64,000 nucleotides of DNA from Sphingobacteriales bacterium (GTDB lineage: Bacteria > Bacteroidota > Bacteroidia > Chitinophagales > CAIOSU01). Below the pieces are notes generated by a model. The model saw only the letters and a program-made list of their open reading frames with translations, was not told the DNA's origin and searched no databases. The stretch lies in NCBI GenBank assembly GCA_027483645.1, contig JAIXUD010000009.1:366814-430813 (forward strand), in the 5' to 3' direction. The translations under genes were made by a program, and so were the position numbers. Shown one piece after another: positions 60,327-62,535 of the stretch. Position 1 is the stretch's first letter; each line of letters begins with the position of its first letter.

Positions 60327-60370
60327 GTACGATGTACAAGGTACGATGTACAAGGTACGATGTACGATGT
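60327..60370. repeat. GTACGATGTACAAG tandem repeat
   Basis: Two perfect 14-bp units (60327-60340, 60341-60354) and a third partial unit (60355-60369). A small hairpin CCTGCC/GGCAGG comes just before. It sits behind gcvP and before its terminator. Confidence 0.8.
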
Positions 60371-60392
60371 GATAAATGTTTGATGATATTAG

Positions 60393-60935: not shown

Positions 60936-61040
60936 TGTGCATAAGGTAATCGCTATACCCATAAAATGTTCACAACCATATAGAATCGGTGCATAACCAA
61001 ATAAAACAGGTGCATAAATTGGTTGAAATGTTGTGCATAA
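60936..61040 (+). promoter_or_regulatory. Array of four phased GTGCATAA sites (operator or DnaA-box cluster)
   Basis: TGTGCATAA at 60936-60944 and 61032-61040, GGTGCATAA at 60988-60996 and 61009-61017, all in the same orientation. Start-to-start distances are 52, 21 and 23 bases, close to five, two and two helical turns. On the - strand the first and last read TTATGCACA, a match to the DnaA-box consensus TTATNCACA. They sit just upstream of the -33 box of the RNA promoter in AT-rich DNA, so they could be operator sites or part of an origin. Confidence 0.6.
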
Positions 61041-61056
61041 ATATGACGAAAAAAGT

Positions 61057-61087
61057 TTTGGAAATGTGGGCTGGTGTACTAACTTTG
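61057..61087 (+). promoter_or_regulatory. Perfect Bacteroidota promoter of the putative RNA
   Basis: TTTG at 61057-61060, exactly 19 bases, then TAACTTTG at 61080-61087: the canonical -33/-7 arrangement and the best promoter in the window. Confidence 0.8.
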
Positions 61088-61091
61088 ATAA

Positions 61092-61445
61092 CATCAAGCG
61101 AGGGAAATAAGGCAGGCTTGCAAAAGCCAGATACCTCGGAAAGTTGTTTGAATTGTTGATTTAGTCGAAGGGGTCGGAAGCCGCAAGGTAGACGATCTGG
61201 GAAAGCATCCGCTTCAGAAGACGATCAATATATTAAAGGTAATCACTTCTTCGGAAGAAACGCATGCCGAGAACAATGTTTCATGTTCGTGTCAGAGTCC
61301 TTTTAGGAAAAACACTTCGGTGAAAGACCTAGAAGAGAAGACGAAGCCACAAAACCGTAACTTGACGCTTTCTGGCTGTAATGGCAAATGAAGGTGGAAG
61401 CGGGCTCTAAAACTGTTAAAAGTTTTAGGCCCGCTTCGTGTTTTT
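61092..61445 (+). ncRNA. Putative structured non-coding RNA, about 350 nt
   Basis: Between the promoter and a strong terminator there is no ORF of note but many short stems: GCGAGG/CCTCG (about 61098/61134) enclosing GGCTT-GCAA-AAGCC; a UUCG-looped hairpin CTTC-TTCG-GAAG (about 61247); GAACA/TGTTC (about 61271); and CAC-TTCG-GTG (about 61313). GAAA and GCAA loops and GATC repeats add to the impression of a folded RNA. I checked for conserved pieces of tmRNA, RNase P RNA and group I/II introns and saw none. Function unknown. Confidence 0.6.
61397..61445 (+). terminator. Terminator of the putative RNA
   Basis: GAAGCGGGC-(T)-CTAAAACT, loop GTTAAA, AGTTTTAG-GCCCGCTTC: 17 pairs with one bulged T, followed by GTGTTTTT. 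Confidence 0.88.
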
Positions 61446-61457
61446 AGTGTGGTCACA

Positions 61458-61493: not shown

Positions 61494-61961
61494 CTATAAA
61501 ACCTTCCGCAGCGGCTGGTTGAGGTCGATAAATTCAAAATCAACCTTGGCTTCTGCTTGTAGCGTCTGATATATCTTCAGGCTTTCGGTGTCCGAACTGA
61601 TATAGTATTTTATCGCTGACTCGGTATCTGCTTGGGCGAAAAGTTTTGTGTCATTGGGAATAATGAGGCGCGTTACCGTTTCCAATGAACCAGCTTTTCT
61701 TGCTTTAAAAGCAATACCCGCGATTTCTGCTGAACGAAAAGCATGATGCAACTCAAAGGGTATTATCTTTAATGACGCGGCTGGCAATTCTTGGTATATA
61801 CCATACACGCAATATTCTGCAACAGAAATGGTCGAAATAGCAAGTACAAAGTCTTGCTCCTTGAAATAGCTAAAGTAATGTTGTGCTTTTTGTTGCAAAG
61901 CATCATTCGGGTTAAGCAACCGAATAAAGAAACTAGTGTCAAACAATACGGCGTTCTGCAT
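61494..61961 (-). CDS. PIN-domain toxin (VapC-like)
   Basis: 155 residues from ATG 61961. PIN-fold acidic residues are visible in LFDTSFFIRLLNPND, SVAEYC, and IPNDTKLFAQADTES. PIN toxins cut RNA. Its ATG overlaps the stop of the upstream gene (TAATG). The C-terminus is longer than in minimal VapC. Confidence 0.78.
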   Translation of the reverse strand: MQNAVLFDTSFFIRLLNPNDALQQKAQHYFSYFKEQDFVLAISTISVAEYCVYGIYQELPAASLKIIPFELHHAFRSAEIAGIAFKARKAGSLETVTRLIIPNDTKLFAQADTESAIKYYISSDTESLKIYQTLQAEAKVDFEFIDLNQPLRKVL

Positions 61962-62407
61962 TAGGCCCTTCCTCGAACTTCGTTTAACCATTCGTCCGGA
62001 TCAACTTTACCTACCCAACTTTCTTTGGCCCGCTCTTGAAGCTCTTTAATGTATTCGGCATCAGCCCTTGGGGCATATTCCACATCTGGGAAAAACTGAT
62101 AGTTGGGTTCCCGTCCCTCCTTCTTACTTTCAATCTCAATATTCACCCCATACTCCTGCTCAATTTCGCGCTCTAATTCTTGCAATGATTTATCTTGAAA
62201 CAATTCATTGAGTATTTGGATAGCAAAAGCAGTACGTTCTTTCCTTACATCTATCATGTGCGAGACCACGGCCAGTAAAACAGTGACCGCAATATCATCT
62301 CCATTGGAAGGCAAAAACCTAAGCGTATCGCCCGCCTTGGGTTGTTGCGCGGCTATTTGCCGTTGCAAACTCCCCCTATCGTTAATATCTACCACTATCG
62401 TCTTCAT
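61961..62407 (-). CDS. Probable antitoxin partner of the PIN protein
   Basis: 148 residues from ATG 62407; an earlier open frame to 62506 looks non-conserved. I do not recognise a known antitoxin fold. N-half begins MKTIVVDINDRGSLQRQI with mixed alpha/beta structure; C-half is strongly charged (QELEREIEQEYGVNIEIES) and ends EWLNEVRGRA. Coupling with the toxin by TAATG makes the antitoxin role likely. Confidence 0.6.
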   Translation of the reverse strand: MKTIVVDINDRGSLQRQIAAQQPKAGDTLRFLPSNGDDIAVTVLLAVVSHMIDVRKERTAFAIQILNELFQDKSLQELEREIEQEYGVNIEIESKKEGREPNYQFFPDVEYAPRADAEYIKELQERAKESWVGKVDPDEWLNEVRGRA

Positions 62408-62535
62408 AACCCTAAGATATAATTCCTTCAACAACATGGCTGCAATAGTAGTTCTCGCCACTGCGCACAGTAACACTAATTTACTAACTGATTTCGCAGT
62501 TTGCAAATTATTTGATGGCGAAAAATGAAACGAGG

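Follow-up and report, generated by a model that had tools for sequence, protein, structure and literature searches.

What recognizes the row of repeated sites that lies directly upstream of a promoter at this locus, and what does the promoter transcribe? The window, which is the whole 64-kb stretch of DNA analysed, contains exactly four copies of the octamer GTGCATAA, all on the + strand, at positions 60937, 60989, 61010, and 61033.

A Site Array Upstream of a Promoter

A preliminary description of this DNA had placed four sites of one orientation at 60936, 60988, 61009, and 61032. These starts are right for the 9-mer [T/G]GTGCATAA and one base early for the octamer core, which begins one base further on. 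The reported spacings of 52, 21, and 23 bases are correct. Direct reading also shows the promoter to be exactly TTTG-N19-TAACTTTG, which we take to be of the Bacteroidota type. The last site ends at 61040, and 16 bases separate it from the TTTG element. As had been stated, two of the four sites match the DnaA-box consensus, being perfect copies of TTATNCACA, and the other two carry one mismatch. The site list itself stands for these four, but a fifth conserved site (TGTTCACAA, 60967–60975) and a degenerate one near 61021 had been missed. The elements upstream of the RNA gene are as follows.

60936–60944, + strand: site 1, DnaA-box-like, TGTGCATAA (TTATGCACA on the − strand), offset −151 from the RNA core start, a perfect TTATNCACA; near-invariant TTGTGYATAA in 7/7 aligned upstream regions of the genus
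60967–60975, + strand: site 2, weaker, TGTTCACAA, offset −120, on the lattice; GTT.A.AACCA kept in 7/7; other lineages often have a lattice site at −119/−121
60988–60996, + strand: site 3, GGTGCATAA, offset −99, one mismatch to TGTGNATAA; weaker in relatives
61009–61017, + strand: site 4, GGTGCATAA, offset −78, one mismatch to TGTGNATAA; GTG..TAA kept in 7/7
61021–61029, + strand: lattice position of degenerate sequence, lying between sites 4 and 5, GGTTGAAAT, a poor box match (four mismatches) of putative function; the GTT at +12 from site 4 does not vary (7/7)
61032–61040, + strand: site 5, TGTGCATAA, offset −55, a perfect TTATNCACA; GTG..TAA kept in 7/7; 19 of 88 sites fall at −54/−55, more than at any other lattice position
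61057–61087, + strand: promoter, TTTG (61057–61060), N19, TAACTTTG (61080–61087), read directly; TTTG and TAnnTTTG kept in 7/7

The seven upstream regions of the genus all show the same order: TTGTGYATAA, GTT.A.AACCA, a variable site, two GTG..TAA sites, TTTG, and TAnnTTTG.

The preliminary description had named an octamer equally common at random as evidence against its proposal. Taken singly, the octamer is indeed not rare: 3.7 copies are expected in the shuffled window, and 91 copies occur across the 4.27-Mb host genome. The clustering is another matter. Within the 0.91 Mb of the host genome that was scanned, the array is the sole place with four same-strand TGTGNATAA sites (up to one mismatch) within 110 bp, and no such cluster occurred in 4.39 Mb of Markov-simulated sequence. 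Four octamers within 104 bp on one strand are not the product of chance. A chance grouping of an AT-rich octamer, for which the ordinary abundance of the octamer in the window could be cited, is thus vanishingly improbable; it is refuted by the clustering and by the conservation, strand bias, and register described below.

The Promoter Precedes a New Structured RNA

The promoter leads into an RNA gene with the following features.

61087–61447, + strand: structured, likely non-coding RNA of about 355 nt; seven aligned genus copies with compensatory changes; distant homologues found by models R1–R3; family absent from Rfam 15
61094–61098, + strand: 5′ strand of closing helix P1 (UCAAG), pairing with 61361–61365; genus alignment columns 12–16 with 285–289
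61366–61395, + strand: 3′ hairpin, directly after P1
61396–61445, + strand: intrinsic terminator hairpin and T-run, read directly

The alignment of the seven genus copies contains 92 predicted pairs, of which 16 show changes on both sides, and a MAFFT alignment of ten members of about 305 nt shows double changes in 30 of 77 pairs. At the 3′ end, 42 distinct sequences were aligned; in the 3′ hairpin and terminator 95.1% of the cells are paired, compared with 41–52% in slid controls, and both sides have changed in 17 of 21 pairs (6 of 7 in the hairpin and 11 of 14 in the terminator), figures that are biased towards the model because the alignment was fitted to it and that include four last rows of weak opposite-strand or chance matches. 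The window and seven homologous loci gave no match in Rfam 15 at the gathering score; at a relaxed threshold they gave chance-level matches only, the best with an E value of 0.64. The RNA is a new structured family that is not in Rfam. Identity with tmRNA was rejected, as a covariance match places the tmRNA of the host elsewhere, on contig C1. The longest sense reading frames in 38 RNAs are short (median 34.5 residues, maximum 88 in L012), so the RNA is likely non-coding.

These 38 RNAs fall into length classes of 241–245, 263–267, 289, 303–308, 352–359, 402–406, and 616–628 nt. Members of the longest class (L163:979–1601, L170, L164, L165, L167, L168, and L173) contain up to four direct repeats of about 106 nt with the motif CUGAGACGGG..ACCGCAGAAG. 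The L163 RNA (623 nt), whose module carries this motif, has four module copies at spacings of 107, 111, and 102. The 402–406 and 303–308 nt classes fit two copies and one copy of the module, respectively.

Distribution of the RNA

By DNA similarity among 40 genomes, the own one included, the RNA was found in three of the four other species of the genus, with two tandem copies in each; the fourth species (530 contigs) and 35 other relatives gave no match. Three models of the RNA were used for more distant searches, R1 for the 5′ half of the RNA, R2 for the 5′ core, and R3 for the 3′ end. R1 applied to 396 genomes of the order recovered the genus and one distant homologue, in a Chitinophagales MAG (G016). 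A pattern scan of named GTDB contigs, in which 5 of 33 loci were accepted (L044, L057, L059, L063, and L068), added the Cyclobacteriaceae MAG DHS20C17; L038 and L041 of the pattern scan were rejected on reading. When 392 genomes of the phylum were searched, R2 gave no acceptable match outside the own genome, all four weak matches in other genomes being rejected on reading. In 390 genomes from the order to which DHS20C17 belongs it added five homologues, and L134, L138, and L139 were rejected. The model matches L087, L091, and L092 also failed on reading. Because of such rejections R2 alone is weak, and a match to R3 together with R2 in the same strand was taken as proof.

R3 matched 65 of 380 genomes from the order to which DHS20C17, a member of the Cyclobacteriaceae, belongs (E limit 0.01) and 27 of 381 genomes across the class (E limit 0.001), the weakest rows in both cases counted as model matches. 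Thirty loci from the order-wide search were fetched for sequence work. In 29 of them an R2 match to the 5′ core lies ahead of R3 on the same strand (E limit 5), and the remaining one, L161, was placed by reading. One further candidate, L198, appears to be protein-coding, its terminator being fortuitous. The RNA is kept even in genomes of 1.2–1.6 Mb. Two copies 0.3–2 kb apart on the same strand were observed on G002:C36, G003:C4, and G004:C78, and in many genomes of the order-wide R3 search.

A plasmid or phage element was rejected, since no similarity was found in either: there was no match among 72,556 plasmid records, the strict RNA pattern was absent from viral contigs, and three looser viral matches were unrelated on reading. 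Plasmid iterons, which are direct repeats of about 20 bp beside a rep gene on a plasmid, do not describe a locus on a 731-kb contig with no plasmid match.

The Array Is Conserved in Register with the RNA

The preliminary description had proposed looking for the same array ahead of homologous RNA loci in related genomes, with a lack of conservation as the outcome that would speak against it. The array proved to be conserved. The loci were gathered with models of the RNA only (R2 and R3), and the test of the upstream regions is therefore independent and not circular.

The 165 bp upstream of each of 38 loci contain 28 perfect TGTGNATAA sites in all, distributed over 24 loci, where 200 shuffles gave a mean of 0.69 and at most 4. 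With up to one mismatch the sites number 93 (shuffles 13.7, maximum 23); because related loci are not independent, these shuffle counts overstate the certainty, and 21 representatives and a second set of loci give a fairer measure. Of the 93 sites, 88 lie on the RNA strand. Perfect sites number 0.737 per upstream window, compared with 0.011 in 466 control windows. The second set comprises 14 loci of the class sample; it has 45 sites on the RNA strand and 5 on the other (TGTKNATAA, up to one mismatch; shuffles 5.4, maximum 15).

The site offsets from the RNA core start cluster at −54/−55, −65/−66, −77/−78, −86/−88, −97/−99, −110, −119/−121, and −131. They describe a lattice of about 10.8 bp, with an R of 0.87 for 53 sites from 21 representatives, which were grouped by eye, and none of 5000 permutations reached this value. 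The second set has the same period (R 0.67), with the lattice phase shifted by about 1.7 bp relative to the first set (V-test u 3.4). Pairs of sites in the same orientation peak at 11 and 12 bp from start to start, that is, with gaps of 2–3 bp, and again at 21–23 bp. A pair at 11 or 12 bp (up to three mismatches) is present in 36 of 52 loci, compared with 0.87 in shuffles (maximum 4) and 4 of 628 control windows; the other 16 loci have no double box at this threshold. The longest row, in L204, consists of six boxes at 12, 12, 12, 12, and 11 bp, spacings that were counted by eye.

The array of the window is sparser than most. It has mainly 21–23 bp steps rather than adjacent 11-bp pairs, and a pair with a 2–3 bp gap is present solely with the degenerate partner between sites 4 and 5. 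A peculiarity of this one genome was nevertheless rejected as the source of the phasing, since other lineages show the lattice as well. In most of the lineages examined, DnaA boxes form a lattice whose register to the RNA start is fixed. The earlier proposal that one protein binds cooperatively on one face of the DNA gains support from this arrangement, in which relatives retain the sites ahead of the homologous RNA at a constant helical register.

Three of the 38 loci, L145, L156, and L153, have no site at one mismatch. L145 and L156 are extra copies, and the other copy in those genomes bears the array (L202 and L204). Upstream of L145 and L156 there are TCATCG/CGATGA repeats instead of DnaA boxes, as if these copies were under a different regulator. 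The register tests did not include L184, L189, L191–L195, L199, and L200, for which R2 gave no properly placed 5′ core on the same strand. L174, L176, and L177 were omitted as repeats of L145, L167, and L170, and L197 and L203 are truncated. DnaA-like sites are visible by eye in L193 and L195, outside the counts. Among 14 second-copy regions the 5′-core pattern gave a start in nine, and these nine are outside the 52 loci.

DnaA as the Candidate Binding Protein

When the upstream sites of the 52 in-register loci are pooled, their consensus is TGTGGATAA, in which the fifth position is free; this is the reverse complement of the DnaA box TTATCCACA. In a study of E. coli (PMC11317965), DnaA in vivo is described as preferring pairs of boxes 2 or 3 bp apart, a gap equal to the 11/12-bp start-to-start spacing found here. 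The preliminary description had treated cooperative binding and DnaA boxes as alternatives; because motif, orientation, and pair gaps all fit DnaA, the two ideas merge. The host has an intact DnaA, encoded on contig C7, that carries GGRDHSTV, which we take to be its signature. The 90 TTATNCACA sites of the host genome make two close pairs, one in the array and one ahead of dnaB, a name that rests on reading the translation. At the latter place (L070, G000:C9:8741–8776), two DnaA boxes 27 bp apart precede the dnaB-like reading frame.

A different regulator, specific to Bacteroidota and with a motif resembling the DnaA box, could bind the array cooperatively and hold the RNA in its regulon. Such a protein would account for departures from TTATNCACA, namely the T that 35 of 113 sites have at position 4 and the GTTCATAA-type sites used in some families (f86), neither of which are classical DnaA boxes. 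However, the consensus TGTGGATAA, the free fifth base, and the 2–3 bp gaps together form a DnaA signature, and the same boxes stand ahead of dnaB. We consider this regulator unlikely.

The array is probably a cooperative DnaA-binding platform that controls the σA-type promoter of the new structured RNA. Head-to-tail DnaA boxes would occupy one helical face in steps of about 11 bp, covering the stretch between about −55 and −150 immediately ahead of the promoter. An oligomer of DnaA, probably in the ATP form, would load on this lattice, and its nearest subunit, at about −57 from the likely start near 61093, may contact RNA polymerase. Transcription of the RNA would then be raised when active DnaA is plentiful, so that the RNA level would follow the potential for replication initiation, and the RNA would act in trans. 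From the arrangement of the sites, activation appears more likely than occlusion, because no lattice site overlaps the promoter.

The opposite sign of control would have bound DnaA block or trap the polymerase, with the RNA made only at low DnaA. Some promoters in other bacteria are repressed by DnaA, which lends this possibility some weight. No lattice site overlaps TTTG-N19-TAnnTTTG, however, and the nearest ends 16 bases upstream, a usual place for activators. Repression is therefore rather unlikely.

The Array Is Not at the Replication Origin

The preliminary description had also raised an origin-like element. The DnaA boxes on which that suggestion was based fit DnaA in motif, orientation, and pair gaps, but the origin itself finds no support. 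The GC-skew analysis that had been proposed shows a cumulative skew falling almost steadily from 0 to −6783 over the 731-kb contig, with neither a turn nor a minimum at the array, which lies in mid-contig at 427.8 kb. The array is not next to dnaA, which is on another contig, or to other origin genes; an origin is not always beside dnaA, so adjacency is a weak criterion. The origin was not located in the host genome because the GC skew is weak and the contig order unsettled. The array also travels with the RNA gene and is present in two copies in relatives. Despite the DnaA boxes and the AT-rich upstream sequence, a chromosomal origin at this place is very improbable.

Head-to-tail boxes in steps of about 11 bp, with strong and weak sites mixed, are found in the DnaA-oligomerization regions of oriC. 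The array shares these features, but it differs in having no skew turn, in lying upstream of an RNA promoter, and in sometimes occurring in two copies.

DnaA-box clusters away from the origin are also known from datA and DARS of E. coli, loci that promote DnaA-ATP hydrolysis or ADP release and that resemble the array in their position. The array might accordingly serve mainly as a DnaA sink or reactivation site, with the RNA promoter as a passenger, and it does hold several boxes away from the origin that are duplicated along with the RNA in some genomes. Yet across lineages the sites keep a fixed register with respect to the RNA start, a constraint for which a sink would have no use, and neither datA nor DARS is known to have its boxes in register with a conserved structured RNA. 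A sink is improbable.

Relation to Known Systems

DnaA-controlled promoters are already known. The double-box promoters of E. coli (PMC11317965) resemble the present locus in having box pairs 2 or 3 bp apart upstream and DnaA as transcription regulator. They regulate ordinary genes (PMC11317965), whereas the target here is a gene for a structured RNA, preceded by as many as six consecutive boxes whose register to the promoter is fixed. Some likeness exists with CcnA of Caulobacter crescentus, described as a non-coding RNA tied to replication control whose gene has weak DnaA boxes (PMC8959179). CcnA is described there as 182 nt long, located in the origin, and presumably CtrA-activated, in contrast to the array RNA, which is not at the origin. 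In the open paper library we found no class-wide structured RNA under a phased DnaA-box lattice, an absence that speaks for this library and is not proof for everything in print. The coupling of replication initiation to gene expression in Bacteroidota seems little studied, and nothing on it was found in the same library.

The conservation of the sites and their helical register suggest that the RNA is switched by the replication initiator DnaA. In a broader and more tentative reading, which we regard as possible but somewhat doubtful, many Bacteroidia would control replication partly through an RNA dedicated to that task. This large, modular structured RNA of 241–628 nt, with one to four repeats of about 106 nt in some lineages, would be made from a promoter that senses a phased filament of DnaA. 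Its amount would be proportional to initiation-competent DnaA, and it would feed back on the cell cycle or on replication. If DnaA does drive the RNA, the RNA would offer a directly testable readout of DnaA activity across an entire bacterial class and would point to an RNA-based step in replication or cell cycle control. The array would then be a natural promoter at which the geometry of a DnaA filament may be read from the sequence.

The reading frames neighbouring the array are, as we take them, gcvP-like, PIN-domain-like, and valS-like. Short tandem TACGATGTACAAGG repeats lie at 60329–60371 of the window, between the gcvP-like gene and a 118-residue reading frame. Adjoining the RNA, on the − strand at 61494–62506, there are two overlapping reading frames, one of them PIN-domain-like, which resemble a toxin-antitoxin pair.
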